35,189 nt of DNA from a virus, in IMG/VR virus record IMGVR_UViG_3300027573_000488, positions 1-35,189 of that record, one strand, 5' to 3'. Shown here in pieces: positions 1 through 32,909 of this stretch; position 1 is the first letter of the stretch, and every line of letters begins with the position of its first letter. Position numbers and translations under genes: made by a program. The notes under the pieces were generated by a model. It searched no databases and had not been told where the DNA came from. It worked only from the letters and a program-made list of their open reading frames with translations.

Positions 1-2
1 CC

Positions 3-167
3 TCCGAGATCCCGGAGCTGGCCGACGACCTGGAGTGCTTTTGGTGCGGAGGACAGCACAGCGAAGGGGAGGTGTGTGAGTACGCACCCTATTACATCAG
101 CGATCAACCCAACACTGATGAGGATGAGAATTGTATCGACATTGGGGATGGGAGCGCAAAGCTATGA
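3..167 (+). CDS. 3' end of a small zinc-ribbon-like hypothetical protein (truncated by window edge)
   Basis: An open frame enters from the left edge and stops with TGA at 165-167, giving about 54 residues. It contains a CFWCGG pair of cysteines followed about ten residues later by another cysteine (GEVCEYAPYYI), which resembles a small zinc knuckle or ribbon. The tail is acidic (DQPNTDEDEN). The stop overlaps an ATG at 164 in ATGA fashion, the same coupling used by the genes that follow. The stretch EGEVCEYAPYYI is repeated almost exactly about 166 nt downstream (KGKVCSYAPYYI), so this gene supplied, or shares, sequence with the mosaic remnant next door. Function unknown; the true start lies outside the window. 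Confidence 0.6.
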   Translation, partial: SEIPELADDLECFWCGGQHSEGEVCEYAPYYISDQPNTDEDENCIDIGDGSAKL

Positions 168-294
168 CAGTAAAGAAAACCAAGCTCGCCACACCCAAGA
201 TCCTTTAAACCCACCGGGCGGAAGTTCAAAGGGGAAGGTGTGTAGCTATGCGCCTTACTACATCGAAGGAACAAACAACGAGGGGGACAAATGA
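164..294 (+). pseudogene. Mosaic remnant made of pieces of two neighbouring genes
   Basis: An ATG at 164, coupled to the previous stop, opens only 14 codons (ending TPKIL) before TAA at 206. The DNA at 194-204 and 211-234 matches the gene at 829 (the PKIL and PTGRKFKG segments), but a net loss of about 14 nt between the two pieces breaks the frame. The next part (229-264) matches the tail of the first gene at codon level (KGKVCSYAPYYI versus EGEVCEYAPYYI) and stays open to TGA at 292-294. A GTG-initiated reading from 76 spans the region, but its first half is only the out-of-frame shadow of the upstream gene. I infer a decayed duplicate or recombination scar. A short functional peptide using the second half cannot be excluded. 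Confidence 0.45.
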
Positions 295-842
295 CACACG
301 GATTATTCGGTTGGAGCTACCCGCCGGGATGTAACGGGCTGCCAAGCGATGAGGATCAGCCTGTTGACATTACGAAGGAGCTAGAAGCCTTCGCCAAGCC
401 GGGGCATGGGCTGTGTGGGAAGGACGCGGATTTGGACTATGGAGGACAGATAGCCATCGTTGCGGCGTTTCTTAATGAGGAAACGATTGAAGCAAGGTTG
501 AGGGTTTATGCAACGATCTGCCCGCCGGAAGGGGATGAGCAAGCAGATATCGCTGGGGAGATTGTCGGCACTTGGGCCGATCACCCAAGCGGGGTAAGCG
601 GCGAATGGACCGGGGACGATTGGTGCTGGTCCCTATCGAACGTGGAAGGGGGACAATACCTAGTAAGCATTCCAATTCCCTTCGTTTCGGATGGGGATTA
701 CGAAGCCGATAAGAAACGTGCCGCTCAAGCGATCCATGATGCAATCTGGGAGGATGAGGGCATCAAGGCTTTCCGGGCGAGCATGACAGGACTGGCGAAG
801 GTATTGGATGGAATCGAAGGGAGCAACGATGCCGAAAGCTAA
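291..842 (+). CDS. Hypothetical phage protein with GWSYPPGC motif
   Basis: This 183-residue acidic protein starts at an ATG directly after AGGGGGACAA, a good SD, and overlaps the preceding reading frame by 4 nt. The N-terminus GLFGWSYPPGCNGLPSDED is of a type I recall in small uncharacterised phage proteins; the WSYPPGC part is the recognisable signature. The middle is rich in Trp, Gly and Asp (GTWADHPSGVSGEWTGDDW), suggesting a compact globular fold. No signal peptide or membrane segment is visible. It lies upstream of three other tiny genes and the helicase, so it is probably an early accessory protein. Its function is not known to me. Confidence 0.8.
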   Translation: MTHGLFGWSYPPGCNGLPSDEDQPVDITKELEAFAKPGHGLCGKDADLDYGGQIAIVAAFLNEETIEARLRVYATICPPEGDEQADIAGEIVGTWADHPSGVSGEWTGDDWCWSLSNVEGGQYLVSIPIPFVSDGDYEADKKRAAQAIHDAIWEDEGIKAFRASMTGLAKVLDGIEGSNDAES

Positions 843-1065
843 AGCTCCAACCTCGCCCAAGATCCTCTATCCGGAGTGTAAGAAGCCGACCGGCAGGAAG
901 TTCAAAGGGCTGATGGCGAGATCATTGCTCGTGACATTGCACCCGGCGGGATGGATCGAATTGCAGGAAGGGAGGGGGAGGAGCTACAGCCTCCCTCTGA
1001 TGACCGTATATCGCCTGGCTATCGAGGCCGAGCGACAATCGAGGAAACGAAAGGGGACACAATGA
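829..1065 (+). CDS. Small basic hypothetical protein
   Basis: I chose the ATG at 829 because AAGGGAG sits 6 nt upstream; an in-frame ATG at 808 has no comparable SD. The 78-residue product is strongly basic. It begins with MPKAKAPTSPKILYPECKKP, contains PTGRKFKG, and ends in a basic tail (EAERQSRKRKGTQ). The centre (SLLVTLHPAGWIELQEGRGRSYSLPLMTVYRLAIEAE) reads like a small beta-sheet followed by a helix, common in small phage nucleic-acid-associated proteins. It overlaps the preceding gene by 14 nt and the following gene by 4 nt. A broken partial copy lies at 164-234. Function unknown; nucleic-acid binding is only suggested by charge. Confidence 0.75.
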   Translation: MPKAKAPTSPKILYPECKKPTGRKFKGLMARSLLVTLHPAGWIELQEGRGRSYSLPLMTVYRLAIEAERQSRKRKGTQ

Positions 1066-1325
1066 CAATCCGGAGAGATGAAGTCTGGTTTCAAACCGAT
1101 GGGAAGGGGCTACGCGAGCTAAACGTACCAGAGGAAGCGCCCGCCGCGATCCCAGCTTGGGCGAAGGCAATCAAGTATGAGTATGACCTGGGGATGAGCA
1201 CATCCTGCGAGGTGTGCGGGGAGGATTTGAAGGAGAACGCGACCGTGTACAAGGACACTGAGTGCGAGGGGAGGGGGCAATACTATTGCTCCCCCGCGTG
1301 TGCGAGAAAGGCGGATACAGCATGA
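1062..1325 (+). CDS. Small zinc-finger-like hypothetical protein
   Basis: The start at 1062 is supported by AAGGGGACAC just upstream and by the ATGA overlap with the previous stop; an upstream in-frame ATG at 951 would overlap the previous gene without an SD. The 87-residue product has a C-terminal cysteine cluster, CEVCGED followed by a 25-30 residue loop and CSPACARK. That CxxC...CxxxC layout is expected for a single zinc-binding treble-clef or ribbon fold. The N-terminal half has no recognisable motif. It is translationally coupled to both neighbours. Metal binding is inferred from spacing alone, and the role (nucleic-acid or protein contact) is unknown. Confidence 0.75.
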   Translation: MTIRRDEVWFQTDGKGLRELNVPEEAPAAIPAWAKAIKYEYDLGMSTSCEVCGEDLKENATVYKDTECEGRGQYYCSPACARKADTA

Positions 1326-1657
1326 GACTTGCGCCTTATGAAGACAAAGGATTGGGTGTTCTCTATCGGTACGATGAAATGCCCTGCACTGATGGGCTTC
1401 ATGTGAACTTGCATGAGTATGGGATCGAGAAGAGAACAGCGAAGGGAGTATGGATTGATTACTACGGGGACCAGCGATTTGTGTTGCTGAGCGCGAGAAA
1501 GCGATTCGCTGCACCAACCGTCAAGGAAGCCCAAGAGAGCTTCCGCGCACGCAAGAAACGACAGGTACAAATCCTCAAGGGGCAGCTCAAGCGTGCGGAG
1601 AGCGCCCTATGGATCATCGACAACGGAAAGGGAGGGGACATTGAACTCATTGATTAA
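1322..1657 (+). CDS. Hypothetical protein with basic helical C-terminus
   Basis: The ATG at 1322 overlaps the preceding TGA (ATGA) and has AAAGGCGG upstream, so I prefer it to the earlier in-frame ATG at 1262. The 111-residue product starts MRLAPYEDKGLGVLYRYDEM, has a probable beta-rich middle with aromatic residues (GVWIDYYGDQRFVLLSARKRF), and ends in a charged helix (AQESFRARKKRQVQILKGQLKRAESALW). The last 17 nt overlap the start of the helicase gene. I do not recognise a family. Its position suggests a minor early protein co-transcribed with the helicase. Confidence 0.75.
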   Translation: MRLAPYEDKGLGVLYRYDEMPCTDGLHVNLHEYGIEKRTAKGVWIDYYGDQRFVLLSARKRFAAPTVKEAQESFRARKKRQVQILKGQLKRAESALWIIDNGKGGDIELID

Positions 1658-3143
1658 AACGCCGCAACAGGAAGCGATCATCGCCCACATGAAGGACAAC
1701 GGATCGTCGCTGGGGGTCGATGCGAAGGCCGGGAGTGGGAAGACCTCCACGGGGATTATGATTTGTAATGAACTCGAAGGGAGTGCGTTCTTCGGGGCAT
1801 TCAACAAAGCGATCGCGGAGGAATTGAAAACCCGCTTACGGGGGATCGAGAATTCCATGATCGAAGCCGGAACGTGGCACAGCTTAGGGCTTCGAGGCTG
1901 GAGAAGGGTCTATCCGAAGGTTGCCGTGGATGGGGATAAACTGTGGAAAATCGTCGATAAGCTGGGGATGCAGACCAGTGGTGGCCCGATTAAAGAACTC
2001 GTGTCCCTCGCGAAGCAAGGATGCTTCAAGGGCGATGAGGACGCGGAAGCGTGGCAGGATATCATCGACTACCATGGGATCGAGATCCAAAACAGAACGG
2101 CTCAGGTCATCGAGGGAGCGAAGAAAGTCTTCGAGGCTAGTAAGGACCAATGCACAAGTGTGGTGGATTTCGACGATATGCTGTGGGCGCCCCTGCATTT
2201 CGATATCGAGTTGCCACAGTACGAGACGATCCTAATCGATGAGGCCCAGGATACGAATAAAGCTCGCCGGGAACTCGCGACCCGCTGTATGTCTGAGGAT
2301 GGGAAGCTGTGCTACCTCGGAGATGAGAACCAGAGTATCTACGGATTCTCAGGGGCCGATGCACAGGCAATGAATCTCATACAGGGGAAGGTCGATGCGA
2401 CCCTGCTCCCGCTTACGGTGAGTTGGAGGTGTGCGAAGGAGATCATCAAGAGGGCTCAGAGGTGGGTCCCTTCGATTGAACATGCTCCCTCCGCTAAGCA
2501 AGGGGAGATTCTGTACACAACCGAAGGGGAGGTGTTGAAGCAACTGATCGATGGGTATGGGGAGAAGGCCGCGCATATTCCCAAAGCTGGCGATGCGGTT
2601 CTCTGCCGGAACACGAAGCCCCTCGTTCAGATGGCCTATCACTGCATTCGAAACAGGGTGGGTGTGACAATCGAAGGCCGCGATATCGGGAAGAAACTCA
2701 CAAAGCTCGTTGAGAAGTTCAAGGAACCTCAGCTATCGAAGCTAAGAGATCGGGTGGATGCGTATTCCAGAGAGGAGCAGGAGCGCTTGATCCAGAAGAA
2801 TAAGCCGGGGATCGCCGCACTCATCGCGGACATGTGCGATACGGTTGACTTCCTCGCGGAGAGCTTGATGCTGGAGGAGAAGAAGGACACGCGGGATCTC
2901 ACGGATCTACTCAATCGCATGTTCAGCGATAGTGGGGGTGGATCGGCATCCACGATCCTGCTAAGTACGATCCATAAGTCCAAGGGCCGGGAGTGGGAGA
3001 AGGTGTTCATCTTGGGAGAGAATCGATACCAGCCGTCGAAGTACGCGAAGCAACCGTGGATGAAGCAGCAGGAGATGAATCTGTGCTATGTGGCAACGAC
3101 ACGAGCAAAAGACACTCTGGTCCACATCGAGGTTATGGGGTAG
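1641..3143 (+). CDS. UvrD/PcrA-like superfamily 1 DNA helicase
   Basis: The 500-residue product carries the SF1A helicase signature in order: Q-motif-like TPQQEAI (7-13), Walker A AKAGSGKT (28-35), Walker B with DEAQD (D200, E201), motif III LGDENQSIYGFSGAD, motif IV-like LTVSWRC, motif V STIHKSKGREWEKVF and motif VI NLCYVATTRAKDTL. In this family these bind ATP and drive 3'-5' unwinding of duplex DNA. It is shorter than bacterial UvrD (about 700 residues), with reduced 1B/2B insertions, as is common in phage versions. I chose TTG at 1641 because GGAGGGGACA ends right before it; the upstream in-frame ATG at 1593 has no SD and adds residues not needed for the fold. It probably unwinds forks or recombination intermediates and lies next to the origin-like array. 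Confidence 0.93.
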   Translation: MNSLIKTPQQEAIIAHMKDNGSSLGVDAKAGSGKTSTGIMICNELEGSAFFGAFNKAIAEELKTRLRGIENSMIEAGTWHSLGLRGWRRVYPKVAVDGDKLWKIVDKLGMQTSGGPIKELVSLAKQGCFKGDEDAEAWQDIIDYHGIEIQNRTAQVIEGAKKVFEASKDQCTSVVDFDDMLWAPLHFDIELPQYETILIDEAQDTNKARRELATRCMSEDGKLCYLGDENQSIYGFSGADAQAMNLIQGKVDATLLPLTVSWRCAKEIIKRAQRWVPSIEHAPSAKQGEILYTTEGEVLKQLIDGYGEKAAHIPKAGDAVLCRNTKPLVQMAYHCIRNRVGVTIEGRDIGKKLTKLVEKFKEPQLSKLRDRVDAYSREEQERLIQKNKPGIAALIADMCDTVDFLAESLMLEEKKDTRDLTDLLNRMFSDSGGGSASTILLSTIHKSKGREWEKVFILGENRYQPSKYAKQPWMKQQEMNLCYVATTRAKDTLVHIEVMG

Positions 3144-3449
3144 GTGATGAGGTAAGGGGGGTAGGTAATGACTTCGGGCGTTCCAGCGAGCATCCTTACC
3201 CCTCCCGCTGTTCTAGGACATCCTGAGAGCAAATTTGACCACCAACACACATTCGTGGACGGGGACCACCGTACCACCCGTACTAGTGTATATATATGTT
3301 ATACATAAATACCGTACCACCTACCGTACCGATCCCGTACCAAGGTGTGTTTTGGTTCGGTTGCGGTCCGGTACGGAGTACGCCACTTCGGTACGGTATT
3401 AATGTGTTGAGTCTAAAGGGTTGGTACGGTAAGTACGGGTCCCCCCGCA
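3144..3449. other. Gene-free region with an inverted CCGTACC/GGTACGG array (origin or partition-site candidate)
   Basis: No credible gene fits these 306 nt between two convergent genes. The motif CCGTACC occurs at 3269-3275, 3312-3318, 3324-3330 and 3335-3341. Its reverse complement GGTACGG occurs at 3370-3376, 3390-3396 and 3423-3429, with near matches at 3280-3284 (GTACT) and 3432-3438 (AGTACGG). The sites therefore point toward each other around about 3355. An AT-rich stretch (3284-3311, containing TGTATATATATGTTATACA) sits inside the left arm. Iterons next to an AT-rich melting region, flanked by a helicase gene and a RepA-like ATPase gene, fit a replication origin. Alternatives are a partition or regulator-binding site or a bidirectional terminator; no U-tract hairpin was seen. 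Confidence 0.55.
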
Positions 3450-4514
3450 CTAGGGCTTTTTCTTAGATGGCTTTGTTGATTCTACGAGGGTTAGCTTTTT
3501 GTCAAATCCGAGCTTGTTCCGTTTGAGGTAGATTGGGGACTCACCTTTCTTGGTCATCATTCCGAGCCGGATGCAATGCCGAACCCAGTCAGAGAAGGAT
3601 TCCTTGGACTTGATGAACTCACAACACGCGACGAACCCTTCATTGAACTTGAATTGCTGGGGAAGGGCTTTCCATGCGTCCTGGCGCTTCTTGGTCCCGC
3701 AGGACATGTCGAAGACTTCTTCCCAATCGTCTACGACTTCGAACCAGCCATCATCACGCTTCCGGAGGGCCATGACCGATTGCCCCCCGAGGAATCGCTG
3801 GGCACCCCCAAGGAAATGTGTGAGATCGTCGGAGTTGCGCTGGATGCCCCAGAGGGAGCCGAAGGAATTGACAAAGTGCGACGATCCCATGATCTCCTCG
3901 AAGAAGCCTTCAGCGTTGGTAGTAAGGGAAGGAGTGGTTTCATTAGCCTTCCGAGGATGGGCGGCAACGATCACGGCACAGTTGTATTCCTGTGAGAGAT
4001 CGAAGCAGAGGGTAGAGAGCGCGTGGACACGGGTGGCGTTATTCACATCTCCCCCGACGAGCTGTGCCGCGTTATCGAGAATAATGCAATCCGGCTTGCA
4101 GTCGGAGCAGATCGCGCACATGGAATCGACGAACTTAGCGGAGGAAGCGCGAACGGTGATCTCGTTTTGAGAAAAATACTCCCTTGTGAAAAGGAAGAGA
4201 TTCTCCCGGACACAGTGATGACCGTTGAGGACCCCCTTGGTTTTATCTTGGATCTCCCGCGTGTCATCTTCGAGGAGACAGGCGACGACGCGACGAGGAG
4301 AGGGGATATCCCAGCCAAGCAGCGGGATACCCGACGCTAGCGATACGCTGAGATTGAGGGTGAAGGTGGTCTTTCCATGACGACGCCTGCCGCCGAGGGC
4401 CACAAGGTCACGCCGGTAAAGTAATCGGTCAATCAGGCATTCTTTCTCCGGGGTTTCATGCTTCAGGAAATTGTTGATCTTTGCCCAATCGGAAGGGAGA
4501 GGGGGTTTGGTCAT
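3450..4514 (-). CDS. RepA/DnaB-like RecA-fold replicative helicase ATPase (AAA_25-like)
   Basis: The 354-residue protein has the RecA-fold core of the RepA/KaiC-like hexameric ATPases. Walker A is an atypical GGRRRHGKTT (41-50), the likely catalytic glutamate is in VACLLEDD (E82), Walker B is CIILDNAAQ (D147), followed by VIVAAHPRK and the polar loop GSSHFVNSFGSLWGI. In phages and plasmids such proteins unwind DNA at the fork or at iteron origins. The C-terminus is basic (TKPSKKKP), suggesting DNA contact. It is the only minus-strand gene in the early block. It faces the helicase gene across the iteron array and is divergent from the plus-strand genes after 4600. The ATG at 4514 follows GGAGA. 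DnaB-like or RSF1010 RepA-like cannot be separated by eye. Confidence 0.85.
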   Translation of the reverse strand: MTKPPLPSDWAKINNFLKHETPEKECLIDRLLYRRDLVALGGRRRHGKTTFTLNLSVSLASGIPLLGWDIPSPRRVVACLLEDDTREIQDKTKGVLNGHHCVRENLFLFTREYFSQNEITVRASSAKFVDSMCAICSDCKPDCIILDNAAQLVGGDVNNATRVHALSTLCFDLSQEYNCAVIVAAHPRKANETTPSLTTNAEGFFEEIMGSSHFVNSFGSLWGIQRNSDDLTHFLGGAQRFLGGQSVMALRKRDDGWFEVVDDWEEVFDMSCGTKKRQDAWKALPQQFKFNEGFVACCEFIKSKESFSDWVRHCIRLGMMTKKGESPIYLKRNKLGFDKKLTLVESTKPSKKKP

Positions 4515-4529
4515 GATGGATCGGTCTCC

Positions 4530-4586
4530 GACACGCTATCGTGTCTGTCAGAATAGAAGAGCCGAGGCTCTGACCACCCCGGCTCT
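4530..4586. promoter_or_regulatory. Two inverted repeats in the divergent control region
   Basis: GACACG-CTAT-CGTGTC (4530-4545) is a perfect 6-bp stem with a 4-nt loop, just upstream of the RepA-like gene start. Downstream, AGAGCC-GA-GGCTCT (4558-4571) forms another, and a third arm (CGGCTCT at 4580-4586) could pair with the first arm AGAGCCG instead. These alternatives would sit in the 5' leader of the minus-strand gene or between divergent promoters. They could be operators, or mutually exclusive RNA hairpins. No run of T follows directly, so a simple terminator is less likely. Confidence 0.4.
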
Positions 4587-4614
4587 CTTTGGGAGGGAAC
4601 GAAAGGAAAGCGGT

Positions 4615-4707
4615 ATGCCTACCGCACAGGGGGAGAATATCACACACAACGGCGGGCGCAAGAAAATAATCGTTGACATTGAAGAATCGACTATAGTAGG
4701 GTCATAA
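4615..4707 (+). CDS. Possible 30-residue peptide gene
   Basis: An ATG at 4615 with AAAGGA 7 nt upstream opens a 30-codon frame ending at TAA 4705-4707. It encodes a small peptide starting MPTAQGENITHNGGRKK and ending in VDIEESTIVGS. No family is recognisable. It lies in the divergent region between the RepA-like gene and the next plus-strand gene, 19 nt before the latter. It may be a leader peptide or a chance frame; the strong SD is the only positive evidence, and the frame also overlaps the TTGACA promoter-like hexamer at 4673. Confidence 0.3.
   Translation: MPTAQGENITHNGGRKKIIVDIEESTIVGS
4673..4702 (+). promoter_or_regulatory. Possible sigma70-like promoter
   Basis: A perfect TTGACA (4673-4678) lies upstream of the gene at 4727. 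The downstream hexamer is uncertain: TATAGT (4692-4697) is the better match, but the 13-nt spacing is too short, and TAGGGT (4697-4702) has an 18-nt spacing but is weak. The position in a divergent intergenic region makes a promoter likely, but its exact elements are not resolved. Confidence 0.35.
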
Positions 4708-4726
4708 CACACAGGGAGACCAACCC

Positions 4727-5029
4727 ATGAAACTCCACATTACCATCCAGAAGGGAAGCGAGACAGCGGCAGGAGTTATTGCAGCGTTGGAAGCGAAGGG
4801 ATGGGAAATTGAGACCCGAGAGATAGGACTGGCAGAGTTCTCCGATGTTCCCAGGGGGGTCTACTACGCCTCATCCGGAACGAAGGAGGATCGATCGATT
4901 GAAGAGCAGGATACCCTGCGGCTCCTCGATGACATGAAGATGATGGGACTGACGCCAGAGAGGGTTACGTCGCCAGCGATCCCACTCCTTGTTCCATCGG
5001 ATGAGCACATTGGGTTGGCGATTCTCTAA
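4727..5029 (+). CDS. Hypothetical protein
   Basis: The ATG at 4727 has AGGGAGACC upstream. The 100-residue product has an alternating beta-alpha look: MKLHITIQKGSETAAGVIAALEAKGWEIETREI, then PRGVYYASS, then a helical stretch EEQDTLRLLDDMKMMGLTPERV and a short end. It may be a small alpha/beta fold with a thioredoxin-like or ACT-like size, but I see no catalytic signature. It is followed by a 24-nt gap and the coiled-coil gene, probably in one transcript. Function unknown. Confidence 0.75.
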   Translation: MKLHITIQKGSETAAGVIAALEAKGWEIETREIGLAEFSDVPRGVYYASSGTKEDRSIEEQDTLRLLDDMKMMGLTPERVTSPAIPLLVPSDEHIGLAIL

Positions 5030-5053
5030 TCACACACCACAAAGAGGGGACAC

Positions 5054-5737
5054 ATGAAAGCCAAAGTTACCGCAAAGAAGGTCGAACTGACGGTTGAGAA
5101 ATCCACATCGACTGCGCTTATCACATCGAAGAATGCCGCCGCGCTCCAACAGCAAGCGAAGACACTCAGCCAGCAGGTAGCGGGCATTGCGATCCGGAAT
5201 GAGCAGGAATGTCAATCCGCACGCACGCTACTCACTCGCATTATCACCGCGAGGGATAAAGCCACGGCATTCGTGAAGCCGATCGTTGACAATGCGAAGG
5301 AAGGCTTGCGGCTAGCGAAGGAGCAGGAGACGACATTGGTAGGCCCGTTGGAAGAGCTACGAGTCAGTCTCAAGTGCACGATCAATAAGTATCTCACGGA
5401 TGTGATGCTGAAGGAGAGGGAGGAGCGAGAGCGGCAACAGCGGATAAAAGAGGAGCATGAAGCCAAGCTTGCGGCTTCGAAGCGACCCGAGAGGATCAAG
5501 GAACTCGTGCTTCCAGCTATCGTCGAGCCTCCCAAGATGGAGAACACCGTCGTCCCGATGGTGCCAAAGTATGAGATCACCGATGAATCACAGATCCCAG
5601 ACGTGTATTTCAAGCGTGTGTTGGATCGGGAGAAGCTGTGGGAAGAAGTCAGGCACGCTCACAAGGATGGAATTGTCATCGTGATTCCCGGCGTGAGAAT
5701 CTGGGAGGAAGCCTCCCTTACGATCAGGAATAGATAA
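5054..5737 (+). CDS. Coiled-coil phage protein, possibly recombination-associated
   Basis: This 227-residue, Lys/Glu-rich protein starts after AGAGGGGACAC. Residues about 20-150 are nearly all helical with heptad-like spacing, ending in a highly charged stretch (MLKEREERERQQRIKEEHEAK). A C-terminal globular tail follows (PDVYFKRVLDREKLWEEVRHA ... IPGVRIWEE). Proteins of this layout, a long helix then a tail ending in a conserved aromatic patch, often sit next to phage ssDNA-annealing and exonuclease genes and are annotated only as hypothetical. That family placement is from memory and not certain. In this window it lies between replication genes and the beta-helix gene. Confidence 0.75.
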   Translation: MKAKVTAKKVELTVEKSTSTALITSKNAAALQQQAKTLSQQVAGIAIRNEQECQSARTLLTRIITARDKATAFVKPIVDNAKEGLRLAKEQETTLVGPLEELRVSLKCTINKYLTDVMLKEREERERQQRIKEEHEAKLAASKRPERIKELVLPAIVEPPKMENTVVPMVPKYEITDESQIPDVYFKRVLDREKLWEEVRHAHKDGIVIVIPGVRIWEEASLTIRNR

Positions 5738-5750
5738 CGAGGATTTGTCA

Positions 5751-7607
5751 ATGTCGAAACCGCAGAAGAATAAACCGCCGGTGGTCAGCGCTGGACCGGA
5801 TCAAACGGTGATCCTTGGAAACCCAGCCACCCTCTCGGGCTCCGTGAGCGATGATAAACTCCCGAAGCCGCCACGATTAACGAGCGGATGGACATTCGTA
5901 TCCGGACCGGGAGCGGTGACATTCACAAACCCAAACTCCGCTATGACGCAGGCTAGTTTCACGATGGCAGGCCAATACGTCCTGCGCCTGCGTGGCTTTG
6001 ATGGGGAGATGGCAACGGTCGATGATGTGATGGTTACGGTGAATAAGCCGCCAGTCGAGCCACCACCTGACCCTGCGGGTCCATTGCCAGAACTCCCGAG
6101 GGTCCAGGTTGACATAACGTATACGAATCCAACGGGGCAAACACTCCGGGTGCGAGACAGCGGACAACTTCAAACCGCGCTGAATACGTGTCTCCCCGGC
6201 GATCTGATCGTGGTGGAGATTGGGGGATATGTAGGCTCATTCAGTCTCCCGAAGAAGACAGCCGACGCGCCTGTGTACATCGTCAGCAGTGCGTTAGCTA
6301 TGCTCCCGAGCGGGAGAGTGAGCCCAATGGACGCCGGTGCCATGCCGAGACTCATAGCGCCCGATCCAACAAGCTCGGCTCTCTACACCCTCCCCTCCGC
6401 CCATGACTATCGCTTCGTGGGAATTGATTTCGGCTGTGAGAAAGGAGAACCGAATAATGGACTGGTACGATTGGGAACTGGAAGTGAGACGAATGTCTCG
6501 GATTTCCCTTCTCGCATTGTTCTCGATCGGTGTCTTATTCGAGGCGATGCTGGCACTGGGGGTCGTCGCGGCGTACTACTTAGCGGTAATCATCTGGGGA
6601 TTGTGAAGAGCCATATCAGCGACTGGAAGCTGACGGATCGGGATGCACAGGCGATCGCGGGATGGACCGGACGTGGGCCGTGGAGGATTGAGGATTGCTA
6701 CCTCGAAGCCAGCGGGGAAGCGTTCCTCAGCGGCGGGAGCGATCCGCTGATTGATGATCTCGTGCCGAGCGACATACAGGTTAGCGATTGTCTCTTCTCG
6801 AAGCCGCTCGCGTGGAATCCGTACAGTCCGGCGTACGACGGCTCCCAATGGCAGTGTAAGAACGCACTTGAACTCAAGAACGCGCGGCGGGTGCTGATAT
6901 CCGGCAACACGATGGAGAATAATTGGTTCGCAGCGCAGAGTGGGGCGATGGTGCTATTCACTCCTAAGAATCAGGATGGATTAGCGACCTGGAGCACGGT
7001 TGAGGACGTGACGATGACTGGGAATAGAATCGCTGGAACGCTTCGAGGTTGGGCGATCAGCGGGAACGATGGCGGCTTCCCATCAGCCGGTGGACGGAGG
7101 ATTCTGATTAAGAACAACTATGTGAGTGATCTCGGGGGAGCGTTGTGGGGAGAGGGTCAAGCGCCCTCATGGGAAGCGAGTTGTGTGTTCCTGATGACGG
7201 GGGGGATGGAGGACGTACAGATCGATCACCTCACGGCGATCCGAGCGATTGGTGCGTCGTTCCCCGGCGCATTCATGTTGGCCGATGGAGCCGCTTATCA
7301 TCGGTTCAAGCTCATGAATAGCATATGGGAGAGCAATGCGTATGGGATCAAGGGAGGAGGGACACAGCAGGGTAACGCGACGCTGGCGGTGTGGTTCCCA
7401 AACGCAGAGGTCAAGCGGAACCTGATGATTGGTGCGTCGTCATGGGATTATCCGACCGATAACTTCTTCCCGGCATCAACGAGTAGCGTGGGATTCGTGA
7501 AGTATCCGGAGGATGTGAGACTGGCGGCTGGTGGGTTGTACGTTGGGCAAGGGACTGATGGGTCGAATCCAGGAGCAGCGGATAGCCTGCTCGGAGGTGG
7601 CGCGTGA
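5751..7607 (+). CDS. PKD-domain plus parallel beta-helix protein (pectate-lyase-like fold)
   Basis: The 618-residue product has two parts. Residues about 8-105 match a PKD/REJ-type immunoglobulin-like domain (PPVVSAGPDQTVILGNPATL, QYVLRLRGFDG, VDDVMVTVN). After a proline linker (PPVEPPPDPAGPLPELP), residues about 120-570 show the short turns of a right-handed parallel beta-helix (RCLIRGDAGTG, IEDCYLEASG, VLISGNTMENNW, ILIKNNYVSDLGG). Such proteins bind or cleave polysaccharides, for example tailspike depolymerases. No signal peptide is visible. ATG at 5751 is preceded by GAGG; TTG at 5745 is a weaker alternative. It is odd that a spike-like gene lies in the early plus-strand block rather than with the virion genes. 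A hydrophobic frame is embedded at 6457-6606. Confidence 0.85.
   Translation: MSKPQKNKPPVVSAGPDQTVILGNPATLSGSVSDDKLPKPPRLTSGWTFVSGPGAVTFTNPNSAMTQASFTMAGQYVLRLRGFDGEMATVDDVMVTVNKPPVEPPPDPAGPLPELPRVQVDITYTNPTGQTLRVRDSGQLQTALNTCLPGDLIVVEIGGYVGSFSLPKKTADAPVYIVSSALAMLPSGRVSPMDAGAMPRLIAPDPTSSALYTLPSAHDYRFVGIDFGCEKGEPNNGLVRLGTGSETNVSDFPSRIVLDRCLIRGDAGTGGRRGVLLSGNHLGIVKSHISDWKLTDRDAQAIAGWTGRGPWRIEDCYLEASGEAFLSGGSDPLIDDLVPSDIQVSDCLFSKPLAWNPYSPAYDGSQWQCKNALELKNARRVLISGNTMENNWFAAQSGAMVLFTPKNQDGLATWSTVEDVTMTGNRIAGTLRGWAISGNDGGFPSAGGRRILIKNNYVSDLGGALWGEGQAPSWEASCVFLMTGGMEDVQIDHLTAIRAIGASFPGAFMLADGAAYHRFKLMNSIWESNAYGIKGGGTQQGNATLAVWFPNAEVKRNLMIGASSWDYPTDNFFPASTSSVGFVKYPEDVRLAAGGLYVGQGTDGSNPGAADSLLGGGA
6457..6606 (+). 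CDS. Possible embedded small membrane protein in an alternative frame
   Basis: A 49-codon frame lies fully inside the beta-helix gene in another frame. AAAGGAG (6441-6447) stands 9 nt before its ATG, a good SD for an internal site. The product begins MDWYDWELEVRRMSR and continues as about 34 hydrophobic residues (LLALFSIGVLFEAM, LALGVVAAYYLAVIIWGL), enough for one long or two short membrane helices. The layout, a short charged N-terminus plus membrane segment, would suit a small phage membrane peptide such as a holin-like protein. Chance remains quite possible because shifted beta-helix codons can yield hydrophobic residues. Confidence 0.3.
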   Translation: MDWYDWELEVRRMSRISLLALFSIGVLFEAMLALGVVAAYYLAVIIWGL

Positions 7608-14791: not shown

Positions 14792-14974
14792 ATGAGACGT
14801 TTACTAAATGGTTTTGTTTCAGATGAATCGGGTCAAGATTTAATCGAATATTCCCTTCTTCTTGTGTTCCTTGCGTTAGCGGCAATCTCGATACTTCCGC
14901 TCCTTGGAACCGCAGTGAACAATGTGTTCAGCTCCGCCGCGAGCACACTCACGAGAAGCCAGACGGGGTCGTAG
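14792..14974 (+). CDS. Flp/Fap-type pilin-like protein
   Basis: The 60-residue product matches the type IVb Flp pilin pattern: a short basic head (MRRLLNGFVSDESG), the processing-site region GQDLIEYSLLLVFLALAAIS with the conserved glutamate, and a hydrophobic helix followed by a short polar tail (SSAASTLTRSQTGS). In Flp pilins a prepilin peptidase cuts before the hydrophobic part. ATG 14792 has AGGAG 7 nt upstream; an earlier in-frame ATG at 14771 is weaker. Codons are more A/T-rich (TTT, TTA, AAT, GAT, CTT) than the neighbouring genes, which suggests recent acquisition from a bacterial host. No other pilus genes are in the window. Confidence 0.75.
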   Translation: MRRLLNGFVSDESGQDLIEYSLLLVFLALAAISILPLLGTAVNNVFSSAASTLTRSQTGS

Positions 14975-15035
14975 GCAACGGTTTAGCAAAGCTGGGCAGG
15001 CGACCGAAGTCTGCCCTTTTGTTTTGGAGGGGACA

Positions 15036-17900
15036 ATGCTATCGAAGCCACCAGCGTGCCGTGACTGCCTCGGATTCAAATGGGACGATGGCGACGGATT
15101 TACGCATCCAGAAGGCACAGGTCGTCTCGGCGTTCACATAGTCGGCGAAGCTGCTGGAAAGAATGAGGCGGTTGATGGACTGCCGTTCCGACCCTACGCA
15201 CAAGCTGGATCAATTCTTACTCAGTGCATTAAGAGAGCCGAAGCCGGTCTCGATCGAAGCGACTTTCTTATCCACAATATCGTCCGTTGTCGTCCACCTA
15301 ATGATCTGCTGGCAGGGCAGTGGTTCGAAGAGCAGGCCATCGCTCATTGTGCGACACACCGAAATTCGGTATTTAAGAAGAATCCCCCCAAAGTGATTCT
15401 CGCGCTGGGCGCTACAGCATTCAAAACTCTCACGAAGTACAGTGGGGAGGAGAAGGAAACGCTGAGCATGATGAGGGGGTATCCGTTACAGATCACACTG
15501 AATGGAAGAAAGGTATGGGTCGTGCCCTCTTTTCATCCCGCGTATATCGCTCGTGGCAAGCGATCACTGATCCCTGTTCTCATCCATGATATCCGCCGGG
15601 CGCTCGACGTAGCAAAGAAGGGATGGAGGATTGAGAAGAAGGACAGATATGTGCTGTATCCGAGCATAGGGGATGCGAAGGAGTTCCTCCAGCAGGTGAT
15701 CTCGCAACCCGAATCCATGCTCTCCTTCGATCTTGAGAACCCCGAGATGCACGACGACTCTGAGGACTGGAAGGACGACGAGGAGCACGCGGAGGATGAG
15801 GGGTGGGAGGAACTGAAAAGTGACAAAGAACGAGCACAAGTCAAAGCAATCGTCTCTGGTAGGCACTACGCTGATATTAAAACCATCCAATTCAGTCTGG
15901 AAAGTAACACAGGTATCTGTCTCCCCTGGGTCGGAGACTATATCAATTTTTCTAAAACAATCCTCGCCCTCCCTAATCCGAAGATTGGCCAAAATGTGTA
16001 CCGATATGATCTTCCAGTTCTCCGCGACAAAGGAGTAACGGTTAATGGACATATCCACGATCTCATGTGGATGATGCACCACCTGTGGCCGGATCTGGAG
16101 GGGTGCTACCATCTCCAAGGGATCTGCTCGTTTCACGGAGGCGATGAGCCCTGGAAGCACAAGAGCAACACGAATCCGGAATTCTACGGCTGCGAGGACG
16201 TATCGAATCCGTTGAAGGCCATCGCGACACTGATCCCGGAGATGAAGGCAGCGGGAGTGTGGAAGAGCTACCTCAGCCATATAACCGAACTCCGGAAGCC
16301 GCTTGATGCAGCCTCTGCCAAAGGTCTCCTCTATGATGTCAAGGGCGGCGAATCCCTCAGCATCGAGCTTGGTGATGAAATGAAGATCCTGGTGGAGAAG
16401 ATGAGGGAGCTATGCCCGGACGAAGTACGCTTGAGTAAGCAGAAGGAGGGATATACACGAGACCCCTCCGATACGACTGGTCTCGTCCAAAGGGAATTCT
16501 CGATTCAATCGAAGACTTACTCTGAATATAAGGTGGACTGCATATGCACGGACGGGATGACGAAGAAGGGCAACCTTTGCGGAAGATGTGGGGGCTCACA
16601 GAAGCGTGTCAAGCGCGTCTTAGAGAAATCCAAAGGCAAGCAGAAAGGGACATACAGCGTCGTCGTGAGATGGTGCTCATTGAAGCCCTTCGTTCCAAGC
16701 AACAAGCAACTGATACGGTACATGGAGTACAAAGGCCACAGCGTCCCAAAACACGCGAGGACGAGTAAGCCGACGACCGATGAGCGAGCCATGAAGCTCC
16801 TTACGACTCGCACGAAGGACCCGATGTATCCGCTGGTGACGGAGTATAAGGGGATTCAGAAACTTAAATCGTCATACGTGGATAGCTGGAAAACCTGGGG
16901 CGATGGGAGGATACATACGACGTTTGGATTCCATCCTAGCAGCGGACAACTGAACTCGCGTGATCCAAACGTCCAGCAGCTCCCGAAGCACAAGGATATT
17001 GCCAATCGCTTCCGCCAACTCATCATCTGCCCACGCAATACATGGCTTGTGGAGATGGATTACCACTCCTTCCACGGGATGACGTGCGGGTTTGAAGCAG
17101 AGGATGCTGATTACCTCCGGCTGGCTCAGATCGATCTCCACGCATACCTGACGAGCGATATGGTTGGGCAGCGGGCCGACACGCGATGGGATGATAAGAA
17201 GCTCACACAGTATCTCAAGGAGATAAGGGCCGCATATCCCGAGATCCGCGACACGAAGGCCAAGCGGGCGATTCTGGGGTATCAATTTGGCATGACAGGC
17301 TACCTCCTTTTTCAAATGTGGAGGGAGATCTATGAGAAACAGAAGGACGCGGAGGATGCCATAGCTCGGATTGACGCATTGTTTCCGAAGCAAGTAGCGT
17401 ATCGGAATCGTACGGTTGATGAGGCGTGGACGAGGAAGCATCTGAAAACCCGCTATGGGTACATCCGCTGGTTCTGGGACGCGAAGAAGTGGGATTCAAA
17501 AAAGAAGACTCATGTATGGGCAGATGATGCGAAGAAAGCCATCGCCTATCGCCCCTCCAATGATGCCCATGCACTCATGAAGGAGAGGATGCTGTGGCTA
17601 GCGGGACTTCCAACACTCGCGTTCAAGGGTCCGAGATTCATGAATGCGGACGATATGCTGAGAGAGTGTGGGTTCCTCATGCCCTACCATGACGCTCTGA
17701 TATTTGAAATGAATGCGAGGGGCATGGATAAGAATATTGAACTCATCCAAAACGTCATGGAAGCCGCCGATCCGCTACTTGTGAATAGCGTAGCCCCCAA
17801 CGGGCTCGCAGTGAAAGTTGATGTGAAAATTGGCTCGAATCTTGGAAAGGAGGCGATGAAGAAATGGGAACGCATAGTCAAGCAGAGGAGATCAGCCTGA
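15036..17900 (+). CDS. Fused uracil-DNA glycosylase (family 4), 3'-5' exonuclease and family A DNA polymerase
   Basis: The 954-residue protein has three parts. Residues 1-195 match family 4 uracil-DNA glycosylase: four cysteines for an Fe-S cluster (C8, C11, C85, C105), GEAAGKNEAVDGLPF (37-51), VILALGATAF and PSFHPAYI with H167. Residues about 200-420 are a DnaQ-like exonuclease (Exo I DLE at 232-234; Exo II IGQNVYRYDLPVLRD). The polymerase has motif A MDYHSFHG (D675), motif B DTKAKRAILGYQFG (K743, R744) and motif C YHDALIFE (H885, D886). An insertion with C502, C504, C515 and C518 looks like a zinc knuckle. ATG 15036 follows GGAGGGGACA. The fusion would couple uracil removal or recognition to replication. 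The Exo III motif is not obvious, so proofreading is less certain. Confidence 0.9.
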   Translation: MLSKPPACRDCLGFKWDDGDGFTHPEGTGRLGVHIVGEAAGKNEAVDGLPFRPYAQAGSILTQCIKRAEAGLDRSDFLIHNIVRCRPPNDLLAGQWFEEQAIAHCATHRNSVFKKNPPKVILALGATAFKTLTKYSGEEKETLSMMRGYPLQITLNGRKVWVVPSFHPAYIARGKRSLIPVLIHDIRRALDVAKKGWRIEKKDRYVLYPSIGDAKEFLQQVISQPESMLSFDLENPEMHDDSEDWKDDEEHAEDEGWEELKSDKERAQVKAIVSGRHYADIKTIQFSLESNTGICLPWVGDYINFSKTILALPNPKIGQNVYRYDLPVLRDKGVTVNGHIHDLMWMMHHLWPDLEGCYHLQGICSFHGGDEPWKHKSNTNPEFYGCEDVSNPLKAIATLIPEMKAAGVWKSYLSHITELRKPLDAASAKGLLYDVKGGESLSIELGDEMKILVEKMRELCPDEVRLSKQKEGYTRDPSDTTGLVQREFSIQSKTYSEYKVDCICTDGMTKKGNLCGRCGGSQKRVKRVLEKSKGKQKGTYSVVVRWCSLKPFVPSNKQLIRYMEYKGHSVPKHARTSKPTTDERAMKLLTTRTKDPMYPLVTEYKGIQKLKSSYVDSWKTWGDGRIHTTFGFHPSSGQLNSRDPNVQQLPKHKDIANRFRQLIICPRNTWLVEMDYHSFHGMTCGFEAEDADYLRLAQIDLHAYLTSDMVGQRADTRWDDKKLTQYLKEIRAAYPEIRDTKAKRAILGYQFGMTGYLLFQMWREIYEKQKDAEDAIARIDALFPKQVAYRNRTVDEAWTRKHLKTRYGYIRWFWDAKKWDSKKKTHVWADDAKKAIAYRPSNDAHALMKERMLWLAGLPTLAFKGPRFMNADDMLRECGFLMPYHDALIFEMNARGMDKNIELIQNVMEAADPLLVNSVAPNGLAVKVDVKIGSNLGKEAMKKWERIVKQRRSA

Positions 17901-18951: not shown

Positions 18952-19161
18952 TCATGGGTATCGAAGCAGTGGATGTCCGCTCATCCCGAGCAACAGGTTC
19001 ATCAGATAGATCAGCACGAACAGTCCAACTACAACCTTGATGATCTTGTTGAAAGGTTCCGGCACGGCAACCCACGCGAGGAACCATAGCACCAGCCAGA
19101 AGATCAATCCGAGGATTACAAGCGTCACGAACAGAGAGAGTAAAGCCGATCCTGAGATCAT
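18952..19161 (-). CDS. Small integral membrane protein, holin candidate
   Basis: ATG at 19161 follows AGGAGGGATCT. The 69-residue product is nearly all hydrophobic, with two membrane segments (ALLSLFVTLVILGLIFWLVL, VVVGLFVLIYLMNLLLGMSG) separated by a short loop (AVPEPFNKIIK). The FWLVLWFLAW and PFNKIIKVVVG phrases resemble the small Thivi_2564-type membrane family, which is a memory-based suggestion. In this place (end of the virion operon, beside lipoprotein and coiled-coil membrane genes) a lysis or membrane role is plausible. Confidence 0.7.
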   Translation of the reverse strand: MISGSALLSLFVTLVILGLIFWLVLWFLAWVAVPEPFNKIIKVVVGLFVLIYLMNLLLGMSGHPLLRYP

Positions 19162-19170
19162 AGATCCCTC

Positions 19171-19704
19171 CTATTTCTTTAGCGATTCCAGTGCCTTCAA
19201 GAGTACATCACTCTTCGCGGCTTCGTCGATCACATTCGACCCAGCGACATTCCGGCTTCGCACACCCGCGACGATCTTGGGAGGGGCACCTGCGGCTCCA
19301 TTCGCGATCGCCGTAGCGATGATGTTCAAAGCGATCCCCACGACCGCGAGGATGCCGGCGACGATGCGACGCTGTGCCTCGGGAATGAGCGCGACTTCAT
19401 TGAGGATCTGCTGGAAGAGACCGTTCGGGGCAATGAGTTGATTAATGAGATCGATAGCGGTCTCAGACTCAGCGCTGAGTGCATCCTGGAGGAGCTTCGC
19501 GACTGCGATAACCTTCTGGAGCAATGGAACTGCGGAGGGGAGGAATTCCTCAAAGTAAGGGAGCGCCTGCTCAAGGAACATCACCACGGTTCCTGCCCAT
19601 TGCACAATGGTCTTCTTCGTGCATCCAACGATGGATAAGCTACCTCCCGTGAGGCCCGCTGCAATCCCTGCCTTTATCACGAACCTGCGATTCATGGTTG
19701 TCAT
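19171..19704 (-). CDS. Lipoprotein with Tat-like signal
   Basis: The 177-residue product begins MTTMNRRFVIKAGIAAGLTG and has a lipobox-like SIVGC with C28, so it is probably a lipoprotein. NRRFVIK is close to the twin-arginine consensus SRRxFLK. The mature part is helical with one very hydrophobic stretch (IVAGILAVVGIALNIIATAI) and ends in an Ala/Ser/Lys tail. The start overlaps the previous stop (ATGA) and follows GGAGACC. Phage lipoproteins are known in superinfection exclusion (for example T5 Llp), but that is only an analogy; it could also act in lysis. Confidence 0.75.
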   Translation of the reverse strand: MTTMNRRFVIKAGIAAGLTGGSLSIVGCTKKTIVQWAGTVVMFLEQALPYFEEFLPSAVPLLQKVIAVAKLLQDALSAESETAIDLINQLIAPNGLFQQILNEVALIPEAQRRIVAGILAVVGIALNIIATAIANGAAGAPPKIVAGVRSRNVAGSNVIDEAAKSDVLLKALESLKK

Positions 19705-26040: not shown

Positions 26041-27318
26041 CTAGATGTCCTGTGCTCCCGGCGCGTTATCAGAATACGGTGGTTTCAATGCGATCATATC
26101 CGCCTGTACCCAAGGAATGTTGTGCCGCTGCTCGAATTCCCCCGCGAAGAACGTGACGCTGCGGGCCATCTGAAACCGGCCTATGTACTTCGGCTGAATG
26201 AATCTCGCGAACTCTCTGCGAGTATAGTACCAGAAAGAGTGCTCGTTCCAATAGGATACGTGGGTGGGGTCTTGGAAGGCTCCCCTTCCATCTGTGCTTG
26301 GGACTTCACACAGCAGCCATCCACCCGGCGCGAGAACTCTGTAGGCTTCGTTCATAGCATGTATCGGATCTCGAAGGTGTTCAAGGATGTGGGATGCGCG
26401 AAGCACTCCCACGCTATTGTCCGCTGCGAAGTCCCAATCTGCATTCAGATCCCATGTAATGTTCGATCCGGATTCCATATCTACTGTCTCATAACCCGGC
26501 CACCCGTTGAACCGTCCCCCCAGATCCAACTTCCTCAACCCATTCTCCTCCGCCCACTGGGTTGCCATCGAAGTACGGTACTTGCAATAATTCCGATCCA
26601 CCTGAGAAAACACGTCGGGGTTATGCTTCTGGCAGGTGTTCTCAGAGTGCCACCGATAGAAGTAGAGGCACCGCTCAATGTGGTGTATCCCCTGCTTCCC
26701 AAACCGTGCGTACATCTTGCACATGAGTTCGTGATCGTCGCCATTCTGGATTGAAGGGTCGTGCCCACCAACTTCTTCATATGCTGATCGTCTCCACGCT
26801 CGCACATGATCGGGGGAATAGAGAATTGAGCGGAGTGCTTGGGGTCCGATACCGAAGTGCAGAGTTTCCTGAAGCTCATGTCCCTGGTACATCACAGGGC
26901 GAGTGCGCCATCCATGCGACTCCACAAAGGTCCGAGGCTTCCATGTGTCGTTATCGAATCCCGCGTTATTCGAGTAAGCCATTGCTACGAGTGGATCATC
27001 GAAGGCACGACGTACTTCCATCAGACACTCCGGGTGTAGCAAATCATCCGCGTCGAACTCCACGATCACATCTCCATTCACGCGGTCAGCGCAGAACTTC
27101 TTGAGGAAGCCGATGGGAGGGTACTTCGAGTTGGGGGGCAGCGAAACCGGACACACCTTCGCCCTAGAATCAAGAACCCCAGTAAACTGATGAGTAAGTG
27201 TCCCTTGAGGAGCGACGATCCACTCCCAATCTTCATGCGTTTGCTCTAGGAGAGTCTTGTATGCCGCTTCCAGAAACCCAAAGTGCGGCGGATGTACAGG
27301 CGTGATAACCGAGAGCAT
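26041..27318 (-). CDS. Family 2 glycosyltransferase fused to a SAM-dependent methyltransferase
   Basis: I place the start at ATG 27318 (MLSVITPV), where AGGAGGAACG fits well; an in-frame start at 27378 lacks an SD. The 425-residue protein has an N-terminal GT-A fold: LSVITPVHPPHFGFLEAAYK, the DxD-like EFDADD (D89, D91) and a YRWHSENT segment. The C-terminal part (from about residue 255) is a Rossmann methyltransferase: LDLGGRFNGWPGYETVDM, ASHILEHLRDP and VLAPGGWLLCEVPSTDG. It would transfer a sugar and methylate it or another target. It lies in the virion operon just after the collagen-like fibres. Substrates are unknown: fibre residues or host-type glycan are the options. Confidence 0.87.
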   Translation of the reverse strand: MLSVITPVHPPHFGFLEAAYKTLLEQTHEDWEWIVAPQGTLTHQFTGVLDSRAKVCPVSLPPNSKYPPIGFLKKFCADRVNGDVIVEFDADDLLHPECLMEVRRAFDDPLVAMAYSNNAGFDNDTWKPRTFVESHGWRTRPVMYQGHELQETLHFGIGPQALRSILYSPDHVRAWRRSAYEEVGGHDPSIQNGDDHELMCKMYARFGKQGIHHIERCLYFYRWHSENTCQKHNPDVFSQVDRNYCKYRTSMATQWAEENGLRKLDLGGRFNGWPGYETVDMESGSNITWDLNADWDFAADNSVGVLRASHILEHLRDPIHAMNEAYRVLAPGGWLLCEVPSTDGRGAFQDPTHVSYWNEHSFWYYTRREFARFIQPKYIGRFQMARSVTFFAGEFEQRHNIPWVQADMIALKPPYSDNAPGAQDI

Positions 27319-27326
27319 CGTTCCTC

Positions 27327-28574
27327 CTATAGAATCATCTGAACGATATTTGAAGCGGGATCGCCAAGAGTCGCCCACAGAATCTGATTCGCAACGGCGT
27401 CGTTGGTTGTCCAGTTCACAGCAGCATTGCCCCCGCCGAACGAACTGAAATCCGCTTCTGAATCCACTGTGAGGGAACCAGCACCAATGGTCCCGAGCCT
27501 GAGAACCTTGTCATCCACAAGCTGACTCCCGCACTGGGTGGGAAGCGTAGCCCCTTTCTCAATAGCAATAAGCGACGCCTCGGAACTGCCATCCGTAGCT
27601 CCAATCGTGAAATTATCATCCTGTACGGCACTCGACGTTGCCACGTTCCCAAAGCTCGTCATCATCAGGAGCTTCGTGATCCCAGCGAGTCCCGTTGCTA
27701 TATTCTGAACTCCTGTGCCATCGGCTTTCTTATTCGTCGCTCCGAGCGCCCAATTTCCACCGCGAATCGCGAGCATTGTGAAGAGATAGTCGTCGGGTGG
27801 TGCATTTGTGAAATCTAAAGTGACGTTGGTCGCATCGTCCGAAACATAGTCGGCTTCGAAATCGAGGGCACCGTCTACGCCAGCCGCTCCAATCTCAATT
27901 CCTTGAAGACATTTGGCCGTTGTTTGCCTTCTAACCGCGTCCATGTTTGTAGTTAGTACAGCTCCATCAACAGCAGAGACGGTAATGGTCCACCGAGAGC
28001 TTGAACTCATCGCCGCGCCAAAAGAAAAGTTGCCTTGGGCTGCAATTCCGGTTGCTGCCAAACTGCTGGTAAATAGAAAAACAATATCCGGCGCACCTCC
28101 GCTCAACCCATGCGCGAAGGTTTGTGTTCCCGTAACTGTTGGCATCGTCTGATTCGTAGCTTGTGCTTCGATATCAGAACCGCCTATGGCGATGTAGGCG
28201 ATCTTGATGGCTCCTGCTGTGTTCGTTGTCCAGTTCAAAGTGAAGCCATCGGAATCGAAGCTCGTTAAATCAGCAAGCGCTCCCGCAAATCCCGTACCCG
28301 TAATGTCGCCAACCAACTTGGTGTTCTGGTAGTTCCGTCTGACTTCCGTGGTCGATACGTTATCGGTAGAGTAGTAAGTAGAACTGAACTCTTCCCCGGC
28401 TCCGGTAGTCCAGGAGATCGCCAACTGCACATCATTATTAAATCCAAAATCACCCCGAGCCACGGTATAGAGGATCAGCAACTTCGGCTGGAAGCCAATG
28501 CCGGTAACTGCTTGGCTAGCAGGTGCTCCACCCGTGCTCTTATCGAAGATTCCAGTCTTTACGAAAACAGACAT
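27327..28574 (-). CDS. Repeat-containing all-beta virion protein
   Basis: The 415-residue protein begins 3 nt after the preceding stop. It is Gly/Ala/Thr-rich and beta-like. A unit ending in a WTT motif recurs: DGFTLNWTTNTAGAIKIAYI, with AIGG, and near the end AAVNWTTNDAVANQILWATL; the phrase GFQPKLLILYT resembles GAPDIVFLFTSS and GITKLLMMTSFG. I infer two or three internal duplicates of one beta-rich domain. Such proteins serve as fibre or receptor-binding parts. No signal peptide or enzyme motif is visible. Confidence 0.75.
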   Translation of the reverse strand: MSVFVKTGIFDKSTGGAPASQAVTGIGFQPKLLILYTVARGDFGFNNDVQLAISWTTGAGEEFSSTYYSTDNVSTTEVRRNYQNTKLVGDITGTGFAGALADLTSFDSDGFTLNWTTNTAGAIKIAYIAIGGSDIEAQATNQTMPTVTGTQTFAHGLSGGAPDIVFLFTSSLAATGIAAQGNFSFGAAMSSSSRWTITVSAVDGAVLTTNMDAVRRQTTAKCLQGIEIGAAGVDGALDFEADYVSDDATNVTLDFTNAPPDDYLFTMLAIRGGNWALGATNKKADGTGVQNIATGLAGITKLLMMTSFGNVATSSAVQDDNFTIGATDGSSEASLIAIEKGATLPTQCGSQLVDDKVLRLGTIGAGSLTVDSEADFSSFGGGNAAVNWTTNDAVANQILWATLGDPASNIVQMIL

Positions 28575-31900: not shown

Positions 31901-31993
31901 CCCTTGTGCCCCCTGCGTTCCTTGTGGACCTTGTGCGCCCTGTGGCCCAGCACCTCCCCCACCTGTCCCGACATTGGACTGATAAATCGGCAC
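28949..31993 (-). CDS. Long collagen-like fibre protein with duplicated globular domain
   Basis: The 1014-residue protein starts at GTG 31993, with GGAG 6 nt upstream. It is mostly Gly-X-Gln triplets ([19 protein letters not shown]). Residues 14-130 are collagen 1; 131-180 a spacer ([18 protein letters not shown]); 181-360 collagen 2; about 361-482 globular A; 483-719 collagen 3; 720-836 globular B; 837-870 collagen 4; 871-1014 a beta-rich end ([20 protein letters not shown]). Copies A and B share [21 protein letters not shown] and PPLYSNPLL, and [14 protein letters not shown]. The Y position is usually Q, as in bacterial collagen without prolyl hydroxylase. Such trimers form long rod-like phage fibres. 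It precedes, in the same operon, the glycosyltransferase gene. Confidence 0.9.
29386..31955 (-). repeat. Collagen-type Gly-X-Gln triplet repeat blocks
   Basis: On the minus strand the DNA repeats GGxNNNCAAGGx units, seen on the plus strand as CCTTG, CCCTG and ATCCTTG. Four blocks lie at about 29386-29490, 29836-30545, 30898-31455 and 31610-31955, separated by non-repeat domains. Similar blocks lie in the fibre at 33396-34613 and, in a shorter and more proline-rich form, at 32040-32520. The repeats make many spurious open frames on both strands. Confidence 0.85.
29486..30900 (-). repeat. Two diverged copies of a globular fibre domain
   Basis: A domain of about 117 residues is encoded at about 29486-29835 and again at about 30547-30900. 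Shared parts include GFxVxDAIYxNGT, KAKADxANTLGIxxV, [21 protein letters not shown] and PPLYSNPLL. By eye the DNA differs at many codon third positions while the protein is conserved, so the duplication is old and selected. Confidence 0.75.
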
Positions 31994-32557: not shown

Positions 32558-32567
32558 AGCTCCCTCC

Positions 32568-32909
32568 TCAGACCTTGAGAACGCTGATCCGTACTTTCTT
32601 GGTCCCGGTTGAAGCATCGACCACATAATCCCTCGGATCGACGCAGTTTGCATTCGTGCCAGATGTGAACGCGATGTACTCCCTCGCGGCGAGCGTTGTC
32701 CCTCGGGTGTCATCGTTAGCCGCTACCAGATCCCGATCGCCCACATAGATCAGATCCGAACCATTCCCCTCATGCGCTTGGAAATACAGTGTGTTCACGT
32801 AGCAACTCCCCTTCGAAGGATCAAGGAGAGTGGCGAAAGCAGTAGCGAGAAGTACCGGAGTCCCGGAAGTCACGGCAATCACGCCCAGCACTTGATAAGA
32901 TCGAAGCAT
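32568..32909 (-). CDS. Small all-beta virion-type protein
   Basis: ATG at 32909 follows GGAGGATGAGTCT. The 113-residue product has a beta-like sequence ([52 protein letters not shown]) and two cysteines (GSC, NANC). Its position between collagen-like genes suggests a decoration or fibre-linked protein. No known family recognised. Confidence 0.7.

Follow-up and report, generated by a model that had tools for sequence, protein, structure and literature searches.

In the E. coli PICI EcCICFT073, repeats situated directly 3' of rep are a tested origin, and both the gene and the origin are needed for plasmid replication (PMC6092414). The PICI origin comprises two iteron sets that flank an AT-rich region, immediately 3' of rep, and this organisation has been called unique to PICIs (PMC6092414). 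In both SaPI Rep and SCCmec Cch2, it is the C-terminal domain that binds such sites (PMC7581432). In PLE, a Vibrio cholerae satellite, variation of the origin allows escape from a phage nuclease that cuts it (PMC8263062).

Here, we describe a comparable layout in a 35,189-base virus record (the window, by which we mean this whole stretch of analysed DNA). A gene-free gap in the window carries an inverted array of short sites, and we consider it very likely that this array is the phage replication origin, with the adjacent RepA-like AAA_25 protein binding CCGTACC iterons, probably via its C-terminal domain. Judged from sequence comparisons, this would newly extend the PICI-type organisation to phages, prophages and plasmid-borne elements that have AAA_25 helicases. 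The features of the locus, in window coordinates, are as follows.

1593-3143, + strand: UvrD/Rep-type SF1 helicase gene, the convergent neighbour (family match)
3144-3449, no strand: gene-free gap with the proposed origin, between two convergent genes
3269-3275, + strand: iteron CCGTACC, exact
3278-3284, + strand: near-iteron CCGTACT, mirror of 3432-3438
3284-3311, no strand: AT-rich segment, possible strand-opening element (24 of 28 bases are A or T)
3312-3318, + strand: iteron CCGTACC, exact
3324-3330, + strand: iteron CCGTACC, exact
3335-3341, + strand: iteron CCGTACC, exact
3370-3376, - strand: iteron CCGTACC reverse, exact
3377-3383, - strand: near-iteron GCGTACT reverse, degenerate
3390-3396, - strand: iteron CCGTACC reverse, exact
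3423-3429, - strand: iteron CCGTACC reverse, exact
3432-3438, - strand: near-iteron CCGTACT reverse, mirror of 3278-3284
3450-4514, - strand: AAA_25 RepA-like hexameric-helicase gene, 354 aa, proposed cognate initiator (family profile and model match RepA)
3453-3746, - strand: C-terminal part of that protein, proposed DNA-binding domain (low-confidence model, helix-helix-helix-strand-strand)

The first-pass annotation had described four CCGTACC copies facing three GGTACGG copies, in a gene-free gap between an SF1 helicase and a RepA-like ATPase, and this description stands. CCGTACC is exact at 3269, 3312, 3324 and 3335, and GGTACGG at 3370, 3390 and 3423, all where they had been placed; these four forward and then three reverse sites span 161 bp (3269-3429). 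The gap is confirmed at 3144-3449, flanked by the UvrD and AAA_25 genes, which are convergent (+ and - strand, respectively), so that it is met by the 3' ends of both. Seven of the nine exact CCGTACC copies in the window fall inside those 161 bp, and dinucleotide shuffles of the whole window yield a mean of 2.1 copies (maximum 6). Three additional copies with one or two mismatches bring the array to five forward versus five reverse sites, and all ten GTAC cores occur within 170 bp, the window maximum. Together, the outermost near-copies make up an inverted repeat of 9 bp without a mismatch (ACCCGTACT/AGTACGGGT), and the last near-iteron lies 11 bp from the AAA_25 stop codon. As single-stranded DNA the gap folds better than its shuffles (z of -3.1), which is expected of inverted repeats. 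The segment at 3284-3311, earlier proposed as an AT-rich core, is the most AT-rich 28-mer of the window, but it sits in the left arm, between its second and third sites, off the centre of symmetry. In the literature searched, the papers that contain CCGTACC or GGTACGG deal with unrelated subjects, and the motif was not matched to a known one.

A second virus record, IMGVR_UViG_3300009678_001044 (39,256 bases), overlaps window positions 1-7142 with a single difference (99.99% identity over 7.1 kb) and reaches 32 kb further upstream. Being almost identical, the two records are silent on conservation of the array, and the searches turned up no close relative that diverges from this phage. Given the terminase, portal and head-protein matches in the upstream part of the overlapping contig, the source is a tailed phage. 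Other 300-bp stretches with at least five copies of a 7-mer occur only at 29.9-31.9 kb and 34.3-34.6 kb of the window, inside collagen-like tail-fibre genes, and none occurs in the 32 kb of the overlapping contig. A search for the same site elsewhere in the genome had been proposed as a check, and across the 67 kb of sequence available for this phage it revealed no further array, which favours an origin. GC skew, another proposed check, went the other way: its sign changes ~3-3.5 kb before the window and near 18.5 kb, not at 3350, and skew was dropped as origin support because there is no switch at the array. The switch ahead of the window (window -3500 to -3000, in the overlapping contig) is ~6.5 kb from the array, and both this switch and that at ~18500 are close to changes of gene orientation.

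Other genes of the window were noted in passing. A single reading frame (14922-17900, + strand) joins a uracil-DNA glycosylase superfamily domain, at the N-terminus, to DNA polymerase A, glycosyltransferase 2 and methyltransferase domains share one frame among the tail genes (26041-27378, - strand), and tail-fibre genes with collagen-like repeats occupy 28949-31993 and 32012-32713 (- strand).

Viral contigs were scanned for a DNA pattern of two forward and one reverse CCGTACC, which returned 63 loci with arrays, the window included. The AAA_25 protein of the window was the starting point of a profile by which AAA_25 genes were found at these loci. In 33 of the 63, the array lies no more than 700 bp past an AAA_25 stop codon, mostly at 1-81 bp. 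Loci with tandem CCGTACC, of no interest themselves, served as controls: an AAA_25 gene occurs anywhere in 9/118 of them, and an array within 700 bp behind it in 0/118. About 18 of the 33 linked loci represent one family, and the whole comprises roughly ten distinct lineages. Most of the linked proteins are primase-helicases that carry Toprim, Prim-Pol or zinc-finger domains ahead of AAA_25. At the equivalent position, named phages and plasmids that encode related proteins bear arrays of other sequence, such as CGGTACA in Idiomarinaceae phage 1N2-2, TGAACCA in two Alteromonas phages, CTACAAA in Roseobacter phage CRP-823 and AAGTGAG in an E. coli element; 3 of 13 lack an array. A tie between the array and the UvrD helicase was also considered and rejected, as the two distant relatives of that helicase, in two other phages, are without such an array.

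We then turn to AAA_25 genes gathered by protein similarity alone, 228 of which have downstream sequence. Within 300 bp past the stop codon, 179 of the 228 have an array beyond that of shuffles (p ≤ 0.02, 100 shuffles each), and in 156 (68%) one 7-mer occurs five times or more. Because the queries came partly from array-bearing loci, these fractions (68-79%) are not unbiased and hold for this family neighbourhood. The comparison regions are nearly free of arrays, with 0/211 upstream of the AAA_25 start and 5/778 after other genes of the same loci. In the 156 arrays, the median distance from the stop codon to the first repeat copy is 8 bp, both orientations are always present (156/156), and there are 82 distinct top 7-mers. 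Neither an AT-rich element nor strong left-right polarity was retained as a family-wide feature: the maximum AT content per 25 bp is 0.697 in arrays versus 0.692 in shuffled sequence, and the polarity is slight (0.365 versus 0.301).

When genes were sampled family-wide from two bacterial classes with the Pfam model, arrays were present at 11 of 35 strong AAA_25 genes and at 3 of 25 weak ones, the latter being members in the score range where DnaB- or RadA-type genes are expected, without individual annotation. Given these counts, an array behind an AAA_25 gene is frequent and not universal. Two bacterial loci with weak AAA_25 matches, L483 and L521 (frames of 854 and 958 aa), have arrays of AGTTGGC (nine copies) and GTTGGGA (five copies), and their proteins are possibly further initiator types.

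These comparisons bear on the most durable of the alternatives, that the array is an operator cluster through which a phage regulator, possibly the AAA_25 protein, controls transcription or blocks convergent transcripts. Short inverted-site arrays also serve repressors, and this one occupies a gap between convergent genes and adjoins the gene of a DNA-binding candidate. However, it stands at two 3' ends, in a gap (3144-3449) where no promoter-like or terminator-like site was found; the known 67 kb hold no second array; and the arrays of relatives follow the helicase gene and never precede it (0/211 upstream). We regard an operator role as improbable.

AAA_25 is the sole family matched by the window protein. 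The family profile of its ATPase domain (alignment A4) matches the RSF1010 RepA structure 1g8y at 3.7e-22, and the window protein model aligns with 1nlf with a TM of 0.66 by target length; the ATPase part of a relative, L174, has the RSF1010 RepA fold with Z of 22. Another alignment, A1, proved too diverse as a search query and was dropped. The C-terminal domain of L174 has a high-confidence model whose elements follow in an order compatible with a winged helix, and the element order in the window protein resembles it, in a model of low confidence. By sequence, the window C-terminal domain has no detectable similarity to those of other proteins (hhalign probability 1.7%). The Pfam matches of the C-terminal domains are weak and mostly helix-turn-helix. 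Against PDB sequences, the C-terminal profile matches only weakly; several matches are to the C-terminal regions of cullin/Cdc53, and the best (E of 0.0077) is to an unrelated engineered protein; structure comparison, which barely covered the C-terminal part, listed no fold for it. In all probability, the RepA-like ATPase acts both as the replicative helicase and as the initiator.

This protein also weighs against a partition site, the alternative named in the first-pass annotation, at which a ParB-type protein would recognize the array as a centromere-like element. Clustered short sites are typical of some centromeres, and beyond the array no result favours this idea. Among the proteins searched, which cover the small ORFs in part, none matches the ParA or ParB families, the AAA_25 protein has a match to the fold of the RepA helicase, and the gene linked to the arrays of relatives is a primase-helicase. 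A centromere-like function is, in our judgement, very improbable, and that earlier suggestion finds no support.

Still less credence can be given to a role in packaging (as a pac site) or as integrase arm sites. Groups of short sites on two sides do occur in the pac of phage P1 and in phage att regions, but the terminase large-subunit match is ~12 kb away, in the overlapping contig, no integrase family match occurs among the proteins searched, and the arrays in relatives come after a helicase gene. A chance or decaying, functionless repeat, for which the sole point is the lack of a divergent relative for checking conservation, is scarcely believable given nine copies versus 2.1 expected, seven of them within 161 bp and in ordered orientation, and given that the position of the array recurs in other lineages.

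How would an AAA_25 protein recognize arrays of such varied sequence? With the ATPase domain controlled for, repeat similarity tracks the identity of the C-terminal domain (partial Mantel r = 0.25, permutation p = 0.002); the reverse comparison, of repeat similarity with ATPase-domain identity, gives r = -0.07. Among pairs with ATPase domains at least 85% identical, the median C-terminal identity is 86% where the repeats agree (105 pairs) versus 65% where they differ (28 pairs), the pairs not being independent of one another. Between loci L265 and L253, identity falls to ~50-70% across the final 300 bp of the gene plus the 260 bp that follow it, with flanks mostly at 85-100%; L437 and L425 have the same dip at the C-terminus and array, with flanks mostly at 75-95%. 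Both dips would fit a specificity cassette. Since the C-terminus and the array are adjacent, recombination could couple them without recognition, and binding is therefore supported, not proven. On balance, and with considerable reserve, we favour a broader picture in which AAA_25 phages, prophages and satellites share a modular replicon, with the C-terminal domain and the array as a co-changing cassette and very many origin specificities, possibly selected by competitors or origin-directed nucleases.

Returning to the array as a replication origin, several attributes of an iteron origin coincide at this locus. Short sites, seven exact and three degenerate, cluster within 170 bp of a small non-coding region; the gene of a putative initiator is adjacent, 11 bp away, in a linkage that recurs; and an AT-rich element is present, with a putative opening role that is not general in the family. 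The comparison with distant AAA_25 genes strongly backs an origin. The iteron-type origin proposed in the first-pass annotation emerges as the best reading, with an array linked to an AAA_25 helicase gene and a position that recurs in distant AAA_25 genes. In the mechanism that we propose, the AAA_25 protein would bind CCGTACC, probably through its C-terminal domain, the AT-rich stretch of the left arm would open, and the two opposed site groups could seat two helicase rings in opposite orientation, which would then unwind both ways.

To our knowledge, the replication origins of most uncultured phages are not known. Should the arrays behind AAA_25 genes be origins, then in many phages, prophages and satellites the sequence alone would reveal where they lie. 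Because the C-terminal domain and the repeat change in pairs, the recognition code is open to direct testing.

Parallels with described replicons differ in kind. In the crenarchaeal plasmid pRN1, an essential origin candidate lies just past the orf904 primase-helicase gene (PMC4234260), similar to the placement seen here. The pRN1 candidate is a long stem-loop without iterons, however, and the helicase is of SF3. Phage P4 alpha belongs to another helicase family than AAA_25. It is similar in that primase, helicase and winged-helix origin-binding parts are united in one protein and the origin has repeats (PMC4234260). P4 has a second site, crr, whereas none like crr was seen in the window. RSF1010 oriV is an iteron origin. 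The RepA of RSF1010 is the closest solved fold to the ATPase domain, but in RSF1010 origin opening is the task of a separate protein, RepC, with RepA loaded at that site (PMC8965321), and no RepC was identified here. Unlike in RSF1010, with its RepC, the iteron sequence in relatives follows the C-terminus of the helicase itself.

The PLE RepA of the Vibrio cholerae satellite offers another likeness, as its initiator and origin are specific to each other and can be exchanged together as a module (PMC8263062), although this RepA belongs to the RepA_N family and is predicted to be neither helicase nor primase (PMC7145576). By analogy, and speculatively, nuclease escape as in the Vibrio satellites might be a reason for the diversity of repeats behind AAA_25 genes.

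The resemblance to PICIs and SaPIs is the most extensive: the origin is right 3' of the initiator-helicase gene, and the short iterons form two sets and are element-specific (PMC6092414, PMC7581432). In PICIs the two sets surround the AT-rich region, whereas here the two sets are opposed and the AT-rich stretch is within the left one. EcCICFT073 Rep has D5_N, DUF5906 and Pox_D5 matches and GTCTACC iterons, whereas the window protein is AAA_25. In E. coli CFT073, the iterons of this tested PICI origin (GTCTACC/GGTAGAC) were seen at 18997-19284 of locus L461, after the D5-type Rep. PICIs and SaPIs are satellites without a terminase large subunit and tail genes of their own, but here both are present, plus a portal; the terminase large-subunit and portal matches are in the overlapping contig, and the tail-fibre genes are in the window. 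Two plasmid-borne elements carry an AAA_25 Rep with arrays and appear PICI-like by their neighbouring genes. A PICI-type layout with another helicase family in tailed phages suggests either convergence or wide exchange.
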